DNA of 64,000 nt from Planctomycetota bacterium (lineage in GTDB: Bacteria > Planctomycetota > Planctomycetia > Pirellulales > Pirellulaceae): contig JAPLNL010000119.1 of NCBI GenBank assembly GCA_026692905.1, positions 124,001 to 188,000 on the forward strand, given 5' to 3'. Positions within the stretch are counted from its first letter, which is position 1; every line of letters starts with the position of its first letter. Under the pieces are notes generated by a model. That model made no database searches. It was not told the DNA's origin and saw only the letters and a program-made list of their open reading frames with translations. Of the stretch, positions 54,801 to 64,000 are shown piece after piece. The position numbers were made by a program, and so were the translations under genes.

Positions 54801-55274
54801 TCATTCAACGCTATCGGTGGCTGACACATTTTCGCTTTCCCCAATCGATTGAATATTCTCGAATTGGTCAAACCAGCGGACTTCATCGGAATTGAAGTCG
54901 ACGATTGCAACCCCCGAAGTTCCGCTGGGGATTTTTGGAAAAAGTTTTTGAAAGACACCAAGGGAGCGACCCTGGAGTTCACGTAAATCGACTCGACACG
55001 CGGTAAGTCGCTCACGAACAAGAAGACTTCGACCACTCCTTTTCAACCAATCGTAGTGTTTATAAGTCAAAGGATCCCAATCCGCAAAACAGCAAACGAG
55101 AACCCTTGGTTTATGTCCAGATTCGATCATCGATTCAATCTCGCTGAGCGATTTCCAATCAACTATCCCGTTGCTGCCCTGAGTCATGAGGGCACAGCAT
55201 ATTAAAACCAACGACATGACCAAGATTGCAGAAGCGACAGAAAATCTAAATCTTACTTTCGAGGATTCGACCAT
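54801..55274 (-). CDS. Membrane-anchored thioredoxin-like protein without CxxC
   Basis: 157 residues. A membrane segment lies at about 12-30 (SVASAILVMSLVLICCALM). The rest resembles a thioredoxin fold: PRVLVCCFADWDPLTYKHYD, where a CxxC would normally follow ADW, and a later IPSGTSGVAIVDFNSDEVRW in the place of the cis-Pro strand. Lack of the cysteine pair suggests a binding rather than redox role. Its start overlaps the end of the RHS gene by 22 bases, a position typical for an immunity gene of an RHS toxin tip. Both readings are inference. Confidence 0.6.
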   Translation of the reverse strand: MVESSKVRFRFSVASAILVMSLVLICCALMTQGSNGIVDWKSLSEIESMIESGHKPRVLVCCFADWDPLTYKHYDWLKRSGRSLLVRERLTACRVDLRELQGRSLGVFQKLFPKIPSGTSGVAIVDFNSDEVRWFDQFENIQSIGESENVSATDSVE

Positions 55275-56926
55275 TTCTTACACGCTCCCTTTGCTGCCGC
55301 GCCCATTCGTGGCTCTTTCGTTGGAGGTGGATCGGTATGATTATTTGGCACCCCATACCCCAAAAGCTGGCAGACCTGAATCTCTACGACGCATCCAAAT
55401 TTGCAATAACTTCCAGAAAAGCTAACCGTAGCTTCAATTGCAATCATTTGACCCGGGCGAGTGAAGTAAATCGCACTCGGTGGCTTGCCTTGGCTCATGT
55501 ATACAATCGACGAAAACACGTAATCCTCACATTTTCCAGCTGCTTTGTCACAGCGAATTGGGCAATTCCAATCCGCTTGAACCCATTTCTCTTCCGCACT
55601 TGAGGAATGACTGCATGCGGTGGTCGAAAAATCATTTTGATGCACCTTCATACCGTTCAATGGATTGAATACCTTGTCGTGACTTCCGAAAAACGACACA
55701 TGAAGATAAGTGTTCTTTCCACATTCGGCGGGGCTTTCTGTTGCGTCAACGGACGCTGAAGCATACAAGCTGCCGATAACCTCTTTATTATCGATGACAG
55801 GGTTTCCGTTGACCACGTCGACTGGATCTATGTAAGGAGCCGACGCAGATGATCCACACAAAGATATTCCATGTGAGCCTGAAATGCTCGAATTGCCTGA
55901 TGGGTCTACTTCAGCGACAGGTCTCGCGTTCCCGTACAAGTAGTAATTCCATCCAGTTGTATACCCGATAGGGTCTCTGGTGAGGAACCTACCTGTCAAT
56001 CTACTCATCCATCTTGCCCTAAAGTGATGCAGGCCCAGCGTCGCATCCCATTCTCGAGCTGTGTAGGTGTAACGATTACCAGCAGCAGAACTCGTCTGTA
56101 CCGTTGCCGATGCGTTCAAGAAGGTTGGCTGGCCGTAGGCCGTGTAGGCATAACGTTCCTGCACCACGCCGGTTGAGTTCGTTAGAGCGTAGATCGAATA
56201 TTGCTGGTTTCGGTGATAGTACAAGACCGTCCCACCGGTGCCAGTCGTTTTACGAACCACTGGTTCGTCGATGTAGCTTCCAAACACGTATCGATAAGTA
56301 GCAGTCGATGCTGCTCCACCGCGAGGATAGTCGGCGATCGTTTGCTGGTCTGCTTGGAAGTAGACCAATGCCGTGGAGCCTTGCGTTCTTGCAACACGTC
56401 TTCCCAACGCATCGTACTCAAACGTCACGTCCGCTGATCCATTGGCGTCGATGTCCGACGACTTCATCTTGTTGTCAAAATCCCAGGAGAAGAACAGGCT
56501 TGAGGCTTGAGACGTGAGGCTTGAGGGGAGTACGGTTTGGTTGCCTTTGACATCTGTCGTGACGGATTGGCCACCTGACGTCAACAACTCGTGAGTTGGA
56601 CCGTGCGTTCGAGTCACTGCCGTTCCGTTGGTTGTCACGCTGGACCAGTCCCCAACCGAAGTTAGCGACCATGTTTGCGCCAGAGCGGCTGTACCGCTTG
56701 TCGCGGCCCGTCGGTAGCCAGATAGTCGATCCTCGGAATCGTAGGTCGTTCCCGCAGCCGTGAAGCCGTAGCCGCTCATGACACCTGCGATCGTTTCGGC
56801 TGTCTTGTTCTTGTTGGCGTCCCACGAATAACCTAGGTTGCCAATATCCGCACCGACGCTGTTTGGATCCCGAACGGTCAACTGATTGCCACCAGCATCA
56901 TAAGTCACCGCAGTGGCTTTGTCCAA
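55253..56926 (-). CDS. RHS-repeat protein, 5'-truncated, with variable C-terminal tip
   Basis: 557 residues from TTG 56926. YD-type repeats (VTYDAGGNQLTVRD, VTFEYDALGRRVARTQGS) lead to the RHS core (YTAREWDATLGLHHFRARWM, RFLTRDPIGY, NYYLYGNARPVAEVDPSG), which ends near residue 345. The last ~210 residues are a tip with ten cysteines (for example DWNCPIRCDKAAGKC), unlike any toxin I recognise. Full RHS proteins exceed 1000 residues, and the frame upstream stays RHS-like only to about 56980 (TDAAGRTIRSLDGL), where it meets unrelated DNA. No secretion signal remains. It is thus an orphan tip or pseudogene, followed by a possible immunity gene. Confidence 0.75.
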   Translation of the reverse strand: MDKATAVTYDAGGNQLTVRDPNSVGADIGNLGYSWDANKNKTAETIAGVMSGYGFTAAGTTYDSEDRLSGYRRAATSGTAALAQTWSLTSVGDWSSVTTNGTAVTRTHGPTHELLTSGGQSVTTDVKGNQTVLPSSLTSQASSLFFSWDFDNKMKSSDIDANGSADVTFEYDALGRRVARTQGSTALVYFQADQQTIADYPRGGAASTATYRYVFGSYIDEPVVRKTTGTGGTVLYYHRNQQYSIYALTNSTGVVQERYAYTAYGQPTFLNASATVQTSSAAGNRYTYTAREWDATLGLHHFRARWMSRLTGRFLTRDPIGYTTGWNYYLYGNARPVAEVDPSGNSSISGSHGISLCGSSASAPYIDPVDVVNGNPVIDNKEVIGSLYASASVDATESPAECGKNTYLHVSFFGSHDKVFNPLNGMKVHQNDFSTTACSHSSSAEEKWVQADWNCPIRCDKAAGKCEDYVFSSIVYMSQGKPPSAIYFTRPGQMIAIEATVSFSGSYCKFGCVVEIQVCQLLGYGVPNNHTDPPPTKEPRMGAAAKGACKKWSNPRK

Positions 56927-56971: not shown

Positions 56972-57325
56972 TTTTGTGGAGTTGCGCGAGGTTCGCCTCG
57001 TGGGGCTGACGTTACATGGAGACTGGCAGCGGCTTCGGCCGGGCCTGGCTGGTTTTCCGTGGGAGATTCGGCAGCCGTGCTGGACCCGACTTCGGCCAAT
57101 GGAGTTCTTCGGGCGTTGCTTTCAGGTATCAGTGCGGGAAAGCTCGCATGCGGAGTGCGAAATGGAGTCTTGCCACCCGAACAAGCCGCGACGATTGACA
57201 ATGACTGGTTTTTCGGCTGGTTTCAGAGCGCTTCAACGCAACTCAGGGAGTTCTATCGTTCACTGGGAGCAACAGGGTTCGCTGACAATGAAGACACAGC
57301 CGTGGAAGTTTCACGTTCAAAATAG
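56972..57325 (+). pseudogene. C-terminal remnant of a FAD-dependent oxidoreductase/halogenase-like protein
   Basis: On the plus strand an uninterrupted frame reads RGADVTWRLAAASAGPGWFS then VGDSAAVLDPTSANGVLRAL, the conserved FAD-binding 'GPGW...VGDAA.VLDP..S.GV..AL.SG' block of flavin-dependent halogenase-like and geranylgeranyl-reductase-like proteins, followed by a family-like tail (NDWFFGWFQSASTQLREFYR). The N-terminal Rossmann part is absent. The left end abuts the truncated RHS gene on the other strand at about 56960-56985, so both genes lost their 5' ends at one junction. Its right end overlaps the 3' end of the next minus-strand gene by about 70 bases. Confidence 0.65.
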
Positions 57326-58398
57326 CGGTTCACTCTTCGCTTCCAAATGAAACCGTCTAGCACGTAATGCGTGATCTGAGGGACGACCAACAGAGGCACC
57401 AACAGATGTTGGCTTGAGGCCCATTCCTGCGGAGTACCGAACAGCCACGCGCGTTCGTGCCATACTCCCACGTCCCAAAGAAACTCTTCCACGTACGCCA
57501 GGGCCCACACGATCGCCAAAAAGGATATCCAATGGGGGCGATAAACATGGTTCGACTCTCTCGTTTGTCGAAAGCGAACCCAGTAAACGAGAACGAGGTA
57601 AGGGACTCCATGCGTAATCACATTGGTCACCGTAAAAGCGAAATCAGAATTGAAAACGACCATGCCTACATACCAACAAATCGCGGTGGTCAATAGCAAC
57701 AAGTCTTTGCCTGGATTGTACTGCTGATAGAGAACCGCTCGAATCACACTGCGCAGCCCATAGGTTGCCAGCGATATCCAGTACACAAGTGGCGCGTACG
57801 TTGCGAATGCTGGTGGGATCGAGATGAAATCTCCTTCTTTGAACCACCAAAAATTGCGTGGCAGATGCGTGTGCCAATACAACAGTGGATAAAGTGTCGC
57901 TGCGTAGATGGCGGTTGTGTCAATCCACCAGCCACCTCGACTTCGCTCGCCCGCTTTAGCCCGATAAAGTGCCAGCCACCCATACTGCTGTCGGACGAAA
58001 TGAAAGACGGCCATATAAGCTAGCACGCGCCAGAAGACCACTGAACCCTCGCGATAAACGATCCACGCCACGGCGAATGACACCAGAGGTGTTAGCCCAT
58101 ATAGCCAAGGACGTTTTGACAACTCCTTGCGATCGAAGTAGACGCGAAAACCGGTCGCATACACGTGCGCCGCGTCGATCATCAAAATCATTCCGACCCA
58201 TAACCAATCTGGCATATCGCTGTGCACGAGTCCCAATGGCACCCCCAACAACAACAAACTCAATGCCAGAACAGCACTACCCAAGAACGTCATTAGATCG
58301 ACGCGCGCCGAAAAGAGCCAAGGCAACTCCCGATCAACAGCAGAACTCGCCGTCGTAGATGCAGTCAGTGGCTTCTCTGGTGATGCGGCGCTTTGCAA
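57253..58398 (-). CDS. Polytopic membrane protein of unknown function, last gene of the DUF4178/DUF350 operon
   Basis: 381 residues with about nine membrane spans. Conserved-looking histidines lie near membrane boundaries (MIDAAHVYATGFRVYFDRKE, YMAVFHFVRQQYGWLALYRA, VITHGVPYLVLVYWVRFR, PQITHYVLDGFIWKRR), a pattern seen in metal- or lipid-dependent membrane enzymes, but no family is recognised. The proposed start is a TTG two bases after the upstream gene's stop, so the start is uncertain; later starts would remove only the polar N-terminus. Tight spacing makes it part of the operon running from the right edge. Confidence 0.75.
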   Translation of the reverse strand: MQSAASPEKPLTASTTASSAVDRELPWLFSARVDLMTFLGSAVLALSLLLLGVPLGLVHSDMPDWLWVGMILMIDAAHVYATGFRVYFDRKELSKRPWLYGLTPLVSFAVAWIVYREGSVVFWRVLAYMAVFHFVRQQYGWLALYRAKAGERSRGGWWIDTTAIYAATLYPLLYWHTHLPRNFWWFKEGDFISIPPAFATYAPLVYWISLATYGLRSVIRAVLYQQYNPGKDLLLLTTAICWYVGMVVFNSDFAFTVTNVITHGVPYLVLVYWVRFRQTRESNHVYRPHWISFLAIVWALAYVEEFLWDVGVWHERAWLFGTPQEWASSQHLLVPLLVVPQITHYVLDGFIWKRRVNRYFERETSTAVSSLSANPVAPSER

Positions 58399-58399
58399 A

Positions 58400-60019
58400 T
58401 CAACTTGCTCTCGCTAAAAGGACTTCATCGGCAGCTCGAACCCCATGGTAGAACGCTTCCTCCAACAAAGCGATACCGCTCAAGTCCGTGTTGGCAAAGT
58501 GGATGGTTCCATCCGAAATTGCCGCCGCTTTACGGGCTGGTCCCCATACAAAACCGGGATACGGCTGGATCATGGCATGTCCCCAACGCATGATATCGAC
58601 CCGAGTCACCAAGCTCCGAATATCGGGATGGGCTAAACTAAGATCTGCCAGCACCAAGTCCGCCCAATCAGCCCACCCAAGTTGCAAGAGTTTCTCGCGT
58701 GATTGCATCGGACTGATATCGGTGAACGGATAATACCATGTGAAAACACTCGGGCCGTAATCATTCCCCGATTGATGTGTGGAGACCACGTAACCTAGAG
58801 ACTTACTGCCGTAGAGAATGTTATCCCAGCATAGTGGAAATCCGTTTTCCTGGGGACGGTCCCGCAAATGGACGTTTGCCACCAGCCAGGAACTGTACTG
58901 AAAATCAGCAGTCGAGCGACCCGTACGAGCCGAAAAATCCTGAATCACGTGCGGTGCAAGAAATTGAGGCAACGCAAAGATCACGCGGTCAGTACGAAAC
59001 CCAATCGGTTGCTGACGTTTTTTATCATAAGCCACCACCGTTGTACCGAACGGTTCAGCATGATTTCGTGACGGAACAATTTGGTATACAAGCTGACCGC
59101 TACGCAGTTGGTCACTCAAGCGCGATGTTAAGTGCTGGACAATGTGACCGTTCCCGGACGGCCAGGTGATAACGTCCTGCGAGTCTTTCGAAGCAGTCCG
59201 CATTCGTGCCGCAAAATAAAGGATGCCCGCCCATGCACTGGTGCGATCGAGGGGCAACCCATAATCATCGCGACAGCCGTATTCCACGTACCAAAACAAG
59301 CGGGGTGAAGTCCATCCCTGACGATTCATCCAACTCAACATCGATTCTTTATCAAGTGCGATCGCTTCGGAATCGTCGGACCCGGTAGCGATAGGAAGTG
59401 AGAAAAACCGTCGGCCTTGTGCATCCCGTTTCTGCGCCCAAGTCGACATGCAAGCGTCGAATTCCGATTTCTGCCGCAGATCGTCACGCGAGGCTCCATA
59501 ACCTGGATACAAACCCTCGTTCCAAACTCCTTCACAAAAGATCCGTTCCTCGGGTTCGCGACACAAATAATGTTCTGCCACAACAGGAACACCGTCTGCC
59601 GAGACATCCTCGACCACTCCCATCTCCTGCAATAGTTGTATTAGAGGCATGTTCTCCGGCATCGGGGTCGTTATGTAATGGGCAGCCCACGGGTACTGAA
59701 ACGAGCCGGTGATCCCGCTGCGAGAAGTGCCCCCAAATTGATCCTCGAGTTCCAACAGTACGAAATCGTAAAAGCCGGCCTGCTGCAATCGCCAGCCTGC
59801 AGACAAGCCCGCAATCCCTCCACCTACAATGACCACCGGTATTTCCTGCCAATCGGCATCGGCAGGAACAAGCGAAAGGCTATCCCTCAATCGATGCCCT
59901 AGACCGATGTCCGGTCCCAACAACTCTCCTTGCAGCGGAATGACACGCGGCTCACAGCCGATCATCGAGGCAGCTGATATTCCAAGCAGCGAATGAAATA
60001 GATCTCGGCGACTAATCAC
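58400..60019 (-). CDS. Tat-exported FAD-dependent amine-oxidase-like lipoprotein
   Basis: 539 residues from GTG 60019, chosen because a twin-arginine signal then starts at residue 3 (SRRDLF) and ends in a lipobox-like SMIGC at C22. A Rossmann FAD motif follows ([20 protein letters not shown], glycines at 66-71; [14 protein letters not shown]), and the C-terminal [20 protein letters not shown] fits the FAD-binding end of amine oxidases/desaturases. It is probably located on the periplasmic side of a membrane. The start overlaps the spermidine-synthase-like gene by 8 bases. Oxidation of a polyamine-like product is an attractive guess from context, but no substrate residue supports it. Confidence 0.8.
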
Positions 60020-61538
60020 TTCGATTCCATTCTGAGTCGTAATAGTGAACCAGCGCCTGGTTATCGAGCCGGTTGATTTCGGAGTCCATCGGCTGCAAAT
60101 CCGCCGGCAACTCAAACAGTCCATTCAAAACGTCGTTGGTAAGAAATCGCAATTCACCCCGCACACGATCGAATGGTAACGGTGTCGAGTCAAACTCCGA
60201 TATGCTCGCGAGTGCAAACCCCCAGATACCGAACGATGGCACTGGCGCATGATAAGGACGCACGTGAAAGCCAGCTGCCTCCAACGTGCGAACGATACAC
60301 CAGTACGATTTCGGAGCCACGAGCGGAGAGGTGCATTGAACCGTTACGAGGGCTGCAGGTTTCAGTCGTTTTTGAAGAAGTCTAAAAAATCGGGTTGTAT
60401 AGAGTTTCCCCACCGAATACGATCCTGGGTCAGGAAAATCAATGATGACCGCATCGTATTGCGGGCCCGGCTTGCCAATCCAAAGAAATGCATCTTCGTT
60501 GATGACCTCGACTCGCGAATCGGAGAAAGCGCCGTGGTTTAGTCGATTGAGTGGCTCAAAGTTTTTTGACAGCTGCGTCATTGCAGGGTCCAAATCAACT
60601 AGGCTCAATGATTCAAGGCTGGAATACTTTAGGCATTCCCGAACTGCCAATCCATCTCCACCTCCCATGACTAGAACGTGTCGCGGTGGTTCATTCCCCA
60701 ACATGGCAGGATGCACGAGAGCTTCGTGATAGCGATATTCATCGACGGAATTGAACTGCAAATGGCCATTCAAAAAAAGCTGAAAGCCAAGCCTTTTCTG
60801 CGTGATAGCAATTCTCTGATAGGGCGAATGCGTGGTATAGATTATCTTGCCGCCCAATGCATTTTCCTCAGCTAACGTCGTGAGTTGGTCTGCTTTAAAG
60901 AACCCTACGCAGAGCAGGAAAGTCACAAGAATGGCTCTCCATCGCAATCTCTCGAGTCCGCGCGAACTCAACAAAGGCCGCAACAAGTACGTGCTCCACC
61001 ATGCAACCAACGCGTTGAGCATGCCGAACAGCAGGGAAGTTCGAACAAGACCAAGATAAGGCACAAACAAAATCGGAAACAAAAGGGAAGCTAACAGCGC
61101 GCCGATGTAGTCAAACGTAAGAACTCTTGATACGAGATCGCCAAAGTCCAAATACTCTTTTAGAATCCGCATCAGCAAGGGCAATTCCAACCCGACCAAC
61201 ACACCTATGGAAAATACCATCCCAAATAGCATGGGTCGAAACCAATCGATCCAGGGGAACGCGAGGAATAGAACCGGAGCCGAAACACCACCGATCAGCG
61301 CTAAGGCCAGTTCGATTTCGATAAAGTACCTTGCCAAATTCGACTGAATGTATTGTGACAACCACGCGCCTACTCCCATAGCCGAAAGATAGACGCCAAT
61401 CACAAACGAAAACTGGGTGACAGAGTCCCCTAGCACATAACTGGCCAACGTCCCGGCCAGCAACTCGTAAATCAGTCCGCACGTGGCGATCGCCAAGACA
61501 TTTAAATAAAGCAATGAGAGAGGCGCTCGGTTGATCAT
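60012..61538 (-). CDS. Membrane-fused spermidine synthase-like aminopropyltransferase
   Basis: 508 residues from ATG 61538, four bases after the DUF350 stop (the frame is open to 61583). The N-terminal ~220 residues form about seven membrane spans, beginning [20 protein letters not shown]. The C-terminal part is a spermidine-synthase fold: [20 protein letters not shown] (SAM site), [25 protein letters not shown] and [20 protein letters not shown] with the catalytic Asp region. This architecture differs from soluble SpeE and is found next to DUF350/DUF4178 genes in other bacteria. It probably modifies a membrane or periplasm-linked acceptor or makes a polyamine locally; the substrate is unknown. 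Confidence 0.85.
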
Positions 61539-61542
61539 CGCA

Positions 61543-61827
61543 TCATCCCAAAATGGAAGCGGCAATGATGATTGAGATACCAATCACGATGGCACCCATG
61601 ATCACCGAAAGTGCAACATTGTGCTCATCGATGATTTCTTTCACGATCGAAAACGGAGTCAGTTTCTCCATAAGGAACAAACAGATCGTCAATACGATAA
61701 TCCCAACGATGGAAAACACGGCGACTGCTAACAAGTGGTAGGAAAGGAGCCCCATGGACCCCGCTCCCTGGCTACCATCAGCGATTGCCAATAACACCGA
61801 AGAAAGAAGCTGATTGAAAGAAACCAT
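61543..61827 (-). CDS. DUF350 (YjfL-like) membrane protein
   Basis: 94 residues from ATG 61827. A run gggagggg sits 7-14 bases upstream of this ATG, and the preceding gene's stop overlaps it as TAATG, so translation is coupled; the open frame to 61845 is ignored for that reason. Three membrane segments are seen ([40 protein letters not shown]), with the conserved polar [12 protein letters not shown] turn typical of DUF350. The family is small and of unknown function, often duplicated, and frequently next to DUF4178 and aminopropyltransferase genes. Here it is a single unit. Confidence 0.85.
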
Positions 61828-62012
61828 TATTTGCCCCCTCCCCAAGAACCACCTGAGGAGCGTCCGACGGACGAGGAGGACCGTCCGATGAACGAGTTGG
61901 ACCCAGATGAATTATCAAAGCTAGGCAATCGCCACCCGGAATACGCGGCCGCGGTAAATCCGAGGCAAACGCCGAACCCCGTCACGAGATAGATAACCAA
62001 TAGTGATTTCAA
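61827..62012 (-). CDS. Tiny membrane protein with Ser/Gly-rich tail (61 residues)
   Basis: An N-terminal hydrophobic helix (LLVIYLVTGFGVCLGFTAAA) is followed by a low-complexity tail of serine, glycine and a few arginines ending in SSGGSWGGGK. The stop shares one base with the DUF350 start (TAATG), which supports real translation. It is preceded by a 99-base gap after the DUF4178 gene. The tail could be surface-exposed or disordered in the cytoplasm; there is no homologue I recognise. Its place inside a tightly packed operon argues against a chance reading. Confidence 0.65.
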   Translation of the reverse strand: MKSLLVIYLVTGFGVCLGFTAAAYSGWRLPSFDNSSGSNSFIGRSSSSVGRSSGGSWGGGK

Positions 62013-62111
62013 AGCGAATACCCTTGTTCAAAAATTTCTAGGAACACCATAGCGGCTCTTCTCTCGGACCAATCCAAAAATACCAAAACGCTGCGATGAG
62101 TTAACGACTCT

Positions 62112-63728
62112 TTACTCTTGACCTCGGGAATAGGGACTGAAGTCACTATTTGCCCACCGCTTCACTTCAAAATTGTGCTTGTAAAAGAACAAACCCAGCG
62201 GCATCAATGATACCAGCAGCATTGAGAGCAACATCGTGCCAACATCCGCTCCCTTGCCCAATTTGAAAGTGCTGAACGCCAAATGGATCAAAGCGAGGAG
62301 TCCGATGAAGCCGAGGTTACAGTAAAGTATTTTCCTTCCCTCCATGTTTGGAGAGGGTTGAATCGGACCGACCCCCCAAGGTCGACGGATATCGGACAAG
62401 CCAAAGGCTTTTTCGAGTTCGTCTACCGAAATGTAAGTTGCTAGCGAGACATTGATTTCCTCTGATGCACTTTCGGATGGTGAACCTTTCTTTCGATTTC
62501 CCGGAGACCCATCCGTTTGGTCCGCATTGACAGACAATGTTCGCTCGAAAGAGAGCATATGCGGCGGTGCGATGTAGTCCATGGTGTTGGATAATTCGCC
62601 GATTTCGACCCGCCAAAAAAATTCACCGAGAACGTAACGCACGGTCGCCGTTCCACCATCGTATTTTCGATAGCTTTCGGACTTATAACGAACAAGGTCC
62701 GGCGGTGGCCAAGCAGACGGGAAATCTATCTGCTCGACAAAGGACCAATGATCTGAACTATTGACCAGCCATCGAAAGCCACTGGAATGGCTGTACAATA
62801 AATATTCCGTCCACGGGAATGAAATTCCGTTGTATAGAACAAAGCGCTCCATGAAGCCGATAACCGTATACTCATTGCCCTGCAACTTTCCTTGCGAACT
62901 CAATGGAAGCAAGGGATGTACCTTTTTGACTTCCAATGATTGCAAATACGCTAGTTTTCCATTGCTCACATCTAGCATCGCTGAACAACTTGGGCATGTG
63001 ACTCGCAACGAATCGTCCGGCGCGTAAAGTGTTAACGCACCTGCACATTTTGGGCAACTGAGCTTCAGCGCACTCACGGGAATTGTTTCCTCGGGCGCCA
63101 TCCCTGCGTCGCCCGCAAGTTTCAACTCGTCGGGTTCTACCGACTGTCCCAAGAATATGTGAGGCACTAGCCCAAATTCAAAAGTGGCGAAGGTGCCCGC
63201 ATCGCCGCGCAAATCGGCATAACGATGTTCCGCGCCGGGGCGAACGTCCCATGGTATTTCACCCTCGGCTGAACCTAGTGTTGCCGTCCCTTTCTCCGTG
63301 ACCGTAAGACTACACTCTTTGATCTTAAAAGACTTGCCTAACTCTAATGAATCAAAGTCTGGCAACTTGAAAGTAGATTTGAGACGCTCTTCAAACGTAA
63401 GGTAATAACGTCCCTGCGCTTCTGCCAACCACCCCCAGCGCTCGCCGGGAAACAACAAGTACCACTCATTCCAAACTCCACCTGCCGCATGTTGGTACTG
63501 AACACGCCCGACAACATCAAAACGCTTCTCCTGGTATCTTCCATTCATGCCGAGCTTCAGCCGCGACTGCGTCTGAACGAGATCGGCGATTTTCCCGTGG
63601 TCCTCCACTCGCTTGTCCCCGCGGGCAACGGCAGAGTTGCAGAATTCGCAGATCGTTACGAGCGACGAGCTGGCTCGGAACTCAACCGGACCACCGCAGC
63701 CAGGGCAATTTGCTGTACGAGTCTTCAT
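62112..63728 (-). CDS. Double DUF4178 protein with zinc ribbons and C-terminal membrane anchor
   Basis: 539 residues from ATG 63728, where an N-terminal zinc ribbon starts (CPGCG at 8-12, C27 and C30 in ICEFC). Two DUF4178 beta-barrel units follow (first: RYQEKRFDVVGRVQYQHAAG and FPGERWGWLAEAQGRYYLTF; second: QGKLQGNEYTVIGFMERFVL and YLLYSHSSGFRWLVNSSDHW), separated by a second ribbon (SCPKCAGAL ... VTCPSCSAML). Two membrane spans near the end (IGLLALIHLAFSTFKLG; LLSMLLVSLMPLGLFFYKH) anchor it. The function is not known; the family is recurrent in gene sets with DUF350, SPFH-like and aminopropyltransferase proteins. It begins 20 bases after the stop of the GYF_2 gene. Confidence 0.88.
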   Translation of the reverse strand: MKTRTANCPGCGGPVEFRASSSLVTICEFCNSAVARGDKRVEDHGKIADLVQTQSRLKLGMNGRYQEKRFDVVGRVQYQHAAGGVWNEWYLLFPGERWGWLAEAQGRYYLTFEERLKSTFKLPDFDSLELGKSFKIKECSLTVTEKGTATLGSAEGEIPWDVRPGAEHRYADLRGDAGTFATFEFGLVPHIFLGQSVEPDELKLAGDAGMAPEETIPVSALKLSCPKCAGALTLYAPDDSLRVTCPSCSAMLDVSNGKLAYLQSLEVKKVHPLLPLSSQGKLQGNEYTVIGFMERFVLYNGISFPWTEYLLYSHSSGFRWLVNSSDHWSFVEQIDFPSAWPPPDLVRYKSESYRKYDGGTATVRYVLGEFFWRVEIGELSNTMDYIAPPHMLSFERTLSVNADQTDGSPGNRKKGSPSESASEEINVSLATYISVDELEKAFGLSDIRRPWGVGPIQPSPNMEGRKILYCNLGFIGLLALIHLAFSTFKLGKGADVGTMLLSMLLVSLMPLGLFFYKHNFEVKRWANSDFSPYSRGQE

Positions 63729-63747
63729 GAAAGAACCCACAATGGCA

Positions 63748-64000
63748 TTATGGAGCTGGCGGAGGGACAGCGGGGGGCGACAACGCAAAAATGGAAGCTA
63801 ATTGAGGAACTTGGCCGGCGGGTAGCCAAGCCGGCATACCAGCCGTCCAAACCAGCGTTTCGGTAGTCACCTCCGATCGCGAAACACCACTCATCATTTG
63901 TTGTAGGCTGTATGGTCCAAGAGTTTGGCCATTGACGGCCACATGCCACGGTGAGGCAGTGTTAGGAGGAGGAGGCGGCACAGATTGGCCGGGTGCCGCT
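63748..64000 (-). CDS. GYF_2 (DUF4339) domain protein, C-terminal part; runs off the window
   Basis: At the right edge the frame is open to the end and in phase reads AAPGQSVPPPPPNTASPW, then the GYF_2 domain: VAVNGQTLGPYSLQQMMSGV and TLVWTAGMPAWLPAGQVPQL, ending in a short Pro/Ala tail. A GTG at 63981 exists, but the proline-rich linker continues beyond it, so the gene almost certainly starts outside the window. In comparable gene sets the protein next to DUF4178 is an SPFH-domain (YdjI/'virion core'-like) protein with a C-terminal GYF_2 or zinc ribbon; that identity is a guess. It leads the minus-strand operon seen here. Confidence 0.75.
   Translation of the reverse strand, partial: AAPGQSVPPPPPNTASPWHVAVNGQTLGPYSLQQMMSGVSRSEVTTETLVWTAGMPAWLPAGQVPQLASIFALSPPAVPPPAP

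Follow-up and report, generated by a model that had tools for sequence, protein, structure and literature searches.

A lysine-ended protein and an SpdH-like flavoprotein in a planctomycetal membrane aminopropyltransferase operon

Operons that bring together a spermine-synthase-like enzyme fused to seven transmembrane segments (7TM), DUF350, DUF4178, a lipoprotein and the PspA-CesT dyad have been described by Ravi et al. (2024; PMC11237479). The main text of that paper ties this kind of operon to membrane stress, names a polyamine oxidase in operon variants in a single line, and reports one variant with a band-7 protein in place of PspA-CesT and some variants lacking the dyad. Here we report on a seven-gene operon on the minus strand of a 64,000-nucleotide stretch of DNA (the window) from a Planctomycetota bacterium of the Pirellulaceae (assembly GCA_026692905.1, contig JAPLNL010000119.1, positions 124,001 to 188,000). 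Because Ravi et al. (2024) describe it, the operon kind counts as known. What is new here is the conserved partnership of its last two genes, a pair of haem-ligand residues like that of the spermidine dehydrogenase SpdH, a ten-helix membrane protein and a lysine-ended protein. As a variant of that kind, the window operon is set apart by a conserved SpdH-like protein, a putative flavocytochrome, and by a membrane protein that is new.

DUF4178, DUF350 and a 7TM-fused aminopropyltransferase are all present in the window operon, consistent with the initial annotation, which had held its first families to co-occur as known. Likewise, a band-7 protein replaces PspA-CesT: the PspA-CesT/Tir dyad was not found in the window operon, and an SPFH-GYF_2 protein occupies its place, whereas the band-7 protein of Ravi et al. 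(2024) has two transmembrane segments and a SHOCT domain. The passages of that paper compared here (text only) are without mention of the lysine end, the SpdH haem ligands or the ten-helix protein. In the open literature searched (titles and the beginnings of abstracts, with subscription papers, figures and supplements outside the search), DUF4178 appeared by name only in Ravi et al. (2024), and neither the lysine end nor the partnership of the flavin adenine dinucleotide (FAD) and ten-helix proteins was found, save for the polyamine-oxidase line.

The conserved lysine end

The third gene of the operon (61,827–62,012, minus strand) encodes a 61-residue protein with one hydrophobic segment, followed by a Ser/Gly/Arg tail that ends GGSWGGGK; a C-terminal lysine was present in every counterpart read. 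Counterparts were called by a rule taking the most hydrophobic frame of 38–130 residues in the gap between the DUF4178 and short DUF350 genes. The rule makes no use of the ending and was written after the lysine ends had been noticed. Applied to 58 loci, it returned a frame in 42 (41 distinct, one duplicate being dropped), and 39 of these 41 end in lysine, as GGK in 24, HK in 12, RGK in two and IGK in one. The two exceptions (loci L187 and L191) are wrong frames, and the lysine-ended frames were found there by reading. Each of the 16 loci without a hydrophobic frame has a lysine-ended product, read with the motif known, which in L092 and L111 is the tail of the DUF4178 protein; this brings the count to 58 of 58 loci after a reading that was not blind. 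A second set of 20 loci gave 13 frames, 12 of them lysine-ended and one (L222) a wrong frame, with no hydrophobic frame in the other seven.

As controls, lysine ends were counted in other operon genes (23/526) and in opposite-strand frames of the same gaps (2/64). The lysine codon is AAA 25 times and AAG 14 times among the 39 proteins, and an overlapping-start artefact is ruled out for the 28 that have no start codon in their last six bases. One counterpart, of 48 residues, is annotated as a gene in the record of a Novosphingobium plasmid. As a pattern, the conserved end is strong and so far unexplained. Some DUF4178 proteins themselves end GGK, SGK or FGK (L092, 6302–7813; L111, 1807–3408; L220, 5474–6304), and a separate small protein was not found in L092 and L111.

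Similar ends occur beyond this operon type. Three operons of the PspA type from the same phylum (L112, L113 and L114, with PspA and CesT confirmed) encode, just before DUF350, a larger membrane-anchored protein ending SRGGK, FGGGK and FGGGK, respectively; the gene before it carries DUF4178 in L112 and L113 and has no Pfam match in L114. The counterpart in L104 ends GFGGK. Moreover, lysine ends were looked for and found in 27 of 27 further loci, including those of Alteromonas (SSGK), Ensifer (ESGK), Burkholderia (SHK) and Tritonibacter (RVK), a count that was not blind and that takes in a frame end only (L217), two proteins downstream of the aminopropyltransferase (L218, L219), one on the other strand (L234) and one called by eye (L235), L238 being left out for its partial enzyme match. 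An Alteromonas plasmid without a PspA match (L237, 5950–12,608) carries genes for an aminopropyltransferase, speD, a toxic-anion-resistance protein, DUF4178, a 510-residue SSGK-ended protein and DUF350.

A comparable arrangement is present in Escherichia coli K-12, in which the DUF1190 proteins YgiB and YjfM end SMGG and HWGG (L240, 2745–3416; L241, 9388–10,026) beside YgiC and YjfC, named peptide-spermidine ligases by RefSeq and matching GSP_synth (PF03738). Among 16 DUF1190 proteins, 12 end GG, two GS and two SS, with none ending in lysine, and it is plausible that the GG end of YgiB and YjfM is a protein substrate. The ygiBC and yjfIJKLMC operons share with the window operon an exported Ser/Gly/Arg tail, a conserved end and an adjoining polyamine-transferring enzyme, together with DUF350 in yjf. 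Their tail ends in GG, unlike that of the window protein, and their enzyme belongs to the glutathionylspermidine synthase family rather than to the aminopropyltransferases.

The FAD protein and the ten-helix protein

The sixth gene (58,400–60,019, minus strand) encodes a FAD protein with a twin-arginine signal followed by a cysteine. Its start is most likely GTG at 60,019, where the frame overlaps the preceding gene by 8 bases, rather than ATG at 60,124. Searched against solved structures, a profile of the family (A1) gave SpdH of Pseudomonas aeruginosa as its best match (E value 1.5e-11). The AlphaFold2 model (mean pLDDT, the model's confidence score, 92.6) has the fold of FAD amine oxidases and aligns with SpdH at a Z-score of ~26 over 449–455 residues with a root-mean-square deviation of ~4, level with other amine oxidases; the SpdH alignments begin at model residue 31 and the other rows shown at 52–60.

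The haem-b ligands of SpdH are His54 and His562 (PMC12564564). By our counting along the alignment, they correspond to H42 and H481 of the window protein, and neither residue varies in the two sets of FAD sequences scored (51 of 51 and 13 of 13). The His562 stretch contributes only 2.8 bits in the A1 alignment, and a profile-profile alignment with plasmid relatives of SpdH, over 479 columns and nearly the full length, places both histidines alike. By our own constant-offset mapping, Asp282 of SpdH, mutated in one deposited SpdH structure, aligns with the invariant D251. The case for kinship with SpdH is built on the two histidines, on the extension at the N terminus and on the length of the profile alignment, the E value alone not being decisive.

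A twin-arginine pattern is present in 74 of the 77 relatives scored, with a lipobox-like cysteine after it in 50 of 77 by a loose test. Of the three left from the set of 80, one has the twin arginine and two lack it, by eye. Together with the fold and the haem-ligand residues, this agrees with the initial call of a Tat/lipobox FAD enzyme (Tat being the twin-arginine route). From its sequence and modelled fold, we take the protein to be an exported SpdH relative and a putative haem-b binder. Like SpdH (PDB 7d9f-7d9j), it has a twin-arginine signal, the fold of FAD amine oxidases and the pair of haem-b histidines, with an aspartate at the Asp282 position by the above mapping; it differs in length (539 residues against 620), in the cysteine that follows the signal in most relatives, in the residue at the Tyr443 position, and in being encoded in an aminopropyltransferase operon.

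The last gene (57,253–58,398, minus strand) encodes a membrane protein to which the initial annotation gave nine spans; its structure model (pLDDT 86.8) has, by our count, ten long helices. Eight residues (D75, H78, H133, H263, E304, E305, H344 and D348) never vary among the 28 ten-helix proteins scored, and the four histidines lie at similar membrane depth, as we read the model by helix position. Pfam and NCBIfam gave no match for the window protein and weak matches for single other members. The fold search of the model gave a best Foldseek E value of 0.25 and a VIA-align Z-score of 7.2 to rhodopsins, within the noise of helical bundles. Our guess would be a haem- or metal-binding electron acceptor, either cytochrome-b-like or a metalloenzyme. 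At L207 (4404–5372), the gene after a Duffyella SpdH relative codes for a cytochrome c, which offers a parallel to an electron acceptor encoded downstream of its flavoenzyme.

The FAD protein and last protein had been thought to look like additions to the operon, a view that a neighbourhood survey does not support: in Planctomycetota, Myxococcota, Acidobacteriota and further groups, each is a conserved partner of the other operon genes. Among 149 Planctomycetota genomes, the ten-helix protein is found in 11, the FAD protein in 13, DUF4178 in 20 and the membrane aminopropyltransferase in 17 (41 genomes match this enzyme in all, the other 24 only in part by our reading). All 13 FAD genomes carry the membrane aminopropyltransferase, and the FAD gene comes next after it in eight. 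In 117 Myxococcota genomes (the phylum of locus L166, from a Myxococcaceae metagenome-assembled genome), the aminopropyltransferase is found in 60, the FAD gene in 51 and the ten-helix gene in 46; all 51 FAD genomes have the aminopropyltransferase (44 with the genes adjacent) and 45 of the 46 ten-helix genomes have the FAD gene. The genomes are related, and P values computed from these counts overstate their independence.

When 84,980 species genomes were scanned with the FAD family as seed, at least 236 loci were confirmed, of which the best 80 were kept. These come from Planctomycetota, Acidobacteriota, Myxococcota, Pseudomonadota, Bacteroidota (Hymenobacter), Elusimicrobia, Gemmatimonadota, Leptospiraceae and others. 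Some of the loci analysed here represent a single genome twice (L090/L139, L091/L161). Within these best 80, the aminopropyltransferase is found in 61 (54 within 300 bases), DUF4178 in 53, DUF350 in 51, speD in 36, the ten-helix gene in 32 and SPFH in 20. For the 19 loci without a nearby aminopropyltransferase, 15 genomes were searched and 13 have the enzyme elsewhere. The near relatives L124, L125 and L131 show the gene order of the window, with speD after SPFH.

The aminopropyltransferase and the remaining genes

The fifth gene (60,012–61,583, minus strand) encodes seven hydrophobic segments and an aminopropyltransferase domain (NCBIfam NF002956/PRK03612, 634 bits). The C-terminal half aligns along its length with solved soluble aminopropyltransferases. 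Across 103 sequences, D385, Y285 and H286 are conserved in all and D382 and E287 in 102; position 393 is Lys in 98 and Arg in five of the 103 that have a residue there. By these alignments, the aminopropyltransferase fold, the catalytic aspartate and the site for decarboxylated S-adenosylmethionine (dcSAM) are intact. Basic residues lie in loops 2, 4 and 6 (57 sequences), the second segment being weak, and the catalytic half is predicted to lie outside the cytoplasm.

Fusions of this class, between a major facilitator superfamily-like membrane part and spermidine synthase, are reportedly numerous and are said neither to make spermidine nor to replace spermidine synthase, their acceptor being left open; they are also said to have a S-adenosylmethionine decarboxylase partner and a DUF350 neighbour. 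The window enzyme would share class, partner and neighbour with these fusions, and here the lysine-ended protein is proposed as the acceptor. The genome carries two membrane-fused aminopropyltransferases; PF01564 otherwise matches one weak place (25.8 bits), so that no clear soluble spermidine synthase is evident. The second enzyme (L107, 8815–11,146) is 42% identical and adjoins a 248-residue lipoprotein with a Ser-rich tail ending SFGK, which has a weak likeness to DUF1190 (E value 0.015, below the cut-off). A S-adenosylmethionine decarboxylase gene, a feature of variants of this operon kind, had been flagged for a search past position 64,000. speD is not in the window operon: its only match in the genome (L123; contig C125, 35,765–36,082) is on another contig, one without either aminopropyltransferase, and is followed by a frame like a GNAT acetyltransferase, by eye.

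All seven minus-strand frames of the initial annotation were found where it had placed them, and its named families hold: domain searches matched GYF_2, double DUF4178 with zinc-ribbon-like matches, DUF350, NF002956 and the flavin amine-oxidase family. The same Pfam and NCBIfam scan of the window proteins found no match for the 61-residue protein or the last protein. The first gene, initially read as a GYF_2 protein and flagged for a search for SPFH past position 64,000, is itself an SPFH-GYF_2 protein: it occupies 63,748–64,000 of the window and is complete at 374 residues (63,748–64,872, minus strand), with Band_7_1 (PF13421) at an E value of 2.9e-101. The second (62,112–63,788, minus strand) is a 558-residue frame in which a zinc ribbon is joined to two DUF4178 domains and, at the C-terminal end, to a pair of hydrophobic segments; its likely start is ATG at ~63,728, and a later ATG is likewise the likely start of the aminopropyltransferase frame. 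The fourth (61,543–61,845, minus strand) encodes the short form of the DUF350 membrane protein (100 residues).

The operon is more than a chance array, since its gene order repeats in loci of many phyla. A promoter and terminator scan gave counts lower than in shuffled sequence. On the 5' side of the first gene, a gap of ~350 bases is followed by an FtsX-like permease, an ABC ATPase-like frame and smpB, all on the same strand. Just downstream of the operon, a 557-residue frame (55,253–56,926) has a weak RHS-repeat match under the Pfam cut-off. The idea of a defence system was set aside: in PADLOC, the FAD protein matched a desaturase model and the aminopropyltransferase domain matched mad2, both weakly and in a general way, and nothing else was found.

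Acceptor and fate of the aminopropyl group

We tentatively favour, at somewhat short of even probability, a system of the envelope in which an exported tail is given a polyamine-like end, with oxidation by the SpdH-like enzyme. SpeD, encoded elsewhere in the genome, would supply dcSAM, and the aminopropyltransferase would modify the C-terminal lysine; the resulting N6-aminopropyl-lysine would be a carboxylated aminopropylcadaverine on Gly-Gly, one carbon longer than spermidine. The exported SpdH-like flavocytochrome would oxidise this end, or polyamine near it, and electrons would pass via haem b to the ten-helix four-histidine protein or another acceptor. SPFH, DUF4178 and DUF350 may form a membrane platform in which SPFH stands where sister operons have PspA-CesT, and the whole may have a role in envelope stress.

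The initial annotation had proposed a membrane-bound polyamine or lipid modification pathway with oxidation of the product on the outer face. Of this, a pathway built on a membrane aminopropyltransferase and an oxidising enzyme that is exported has support, from the twin-arginine patterns, the amine-oxidase fold, the SpdH haem-ligand residues, the SPFH domain found past the window end and speD in the operons of many relatives. In place of a lipid or free polyamine, the conserved C-terminal lysine of the small protein points to a protein acceptor, and we give that lysine a chance equal to, or a shade below, that of the system as a whole. The idea is attractive because Gly-Gly-aminopropyl-lysine resembles Gly-Gly-spermidine, a parallel that is no proof. 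Joined with the E. coli operons, the proposal is slightly more tentative than the system itself: an exported family with the lysine end as its most strongly conserved trait (mostly GGK or HK) would receive a polyamine end from the membrane aminopropyltransferase, in analogy to spermidine on the GG end of DUF1190 proteins, with DUF350 as the membrane partner of both, and here the product would be oxidised by an SpdH-like haem-b dehydrogenase together with the ten-helix protein, the electrons being passed on to the membrane.

Several observations weigh against this proposal. The aminopropyl-lysine end, although like Gly-Gly-spermidine, exceeds it by the extra carbon and keeps a carboxyl group, and in E. 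coli the enzyme of the proposed analogue is an ATP-grasp ligase, presumably cytosolic. The positive-inside rule for a tail-out topology fits only 26 of the 39 small proteins, and a catalytic domain on the predicted outer side would need dcSAM to be exported. R284, tried as a ligand for the lysine carboxylate, is weakened as a candidate by the Ile found there in L112–L114. Further products of the L113 and L114 operons have C-terminal lysines as well (PspA, the aminopropyltransferase and the DUF350 protein of L114), so that only the GGK form is telling there. On the side of oxidation, a larger profile (A4) built from N-terminally cut sequences found other amine oxidases, SpdH not being among its 14 PDB matches at an E value of 1e-10 or better. 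Tyr443 of SpdH is not kept, aligning with V380 at a position that is Val, Thr or Ile in relatives; the substrate pocket therefore probably differs from that of SpdH. Finally, the FAD gene is absent from nine of 60 Myxococcota and four of 17 Planctomycetota aminopropyltransferase genomes, hence oxidation is not obligatory.

Among the alternatives, the one that survives best, though we consider it rather unlikely, is that a free exported polyamine is made at the membrane and oxidised by the SpdH-like enzyme, the lysine-ended protein being a subunit or anchor. Soluble enzymes align along the length of the aminopropyltransferase domain, SpdH itself acts on free spermidine and spermine (PMC12564564), and the main text of Ravi et al. 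(2024; PMC11237479) has the polyamine oxidase in variants. Such a pathway leaves unexplained why lysine ends the product in all 58 loci despite its variable length and sequence. Moreover, the fusions reportedly do not replace spermidine synthase.

It is improbable, in our estimate, that the lysine stays unmodified as a pseudo-substrate or docking end that holds or inhibits the aminopropyltransferase or DUF350, the true acceptor lying elsewhere. A conserved end on a variable body would suit docking, as would residue 393, Lys or Arg in 103 of 103, which could bind a carboxylate; such an arrangement requires a second acceptor and leaves the GG-ended DUF1190 parallel beside the spermidine ligases without explanation. 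We give a still smaller chance to a membrane lipid head group as the acceptor, with the FAD enzyme oxidising a lipid-borne aminopropyl group. Fusion of the aminopropyltransferase to a membrane part speaks for it, as does the published tie of such operons to membrane stress (in the main text of PMC11237479); against it, what the operon encodes is a conserved lysine end. That the FAD and ten-helix genes are unrelated neighbours held together by descent is highly improbable and largely refuted by the genome and locus surveys, for although the ten-helix gene is in only 28 of 61 aminopropyltransferase loci and varies in position, the FAD-aminopropyltransferase co-occurrence is complete (13/13 and 51/51) and survives unlinking (13 of the 15 genomes searched), and L154, L168 and L196 carry the ten-helix gene elsewhere inside the operon.

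If the lysine-acceptor proposal is true, it would represent a new protein modification and would identify what membrane-fused aminopropyltransferases act on, and the acceptor question of these spermidine-synthase-like enzymes becomes testable as one mass shift of 57.06 Da. Furthermore, two types of DUF350 operon and the E. coli proteins YgiB and YjfM would be joined under one idea, that of envelope proteins with polyamine ends.

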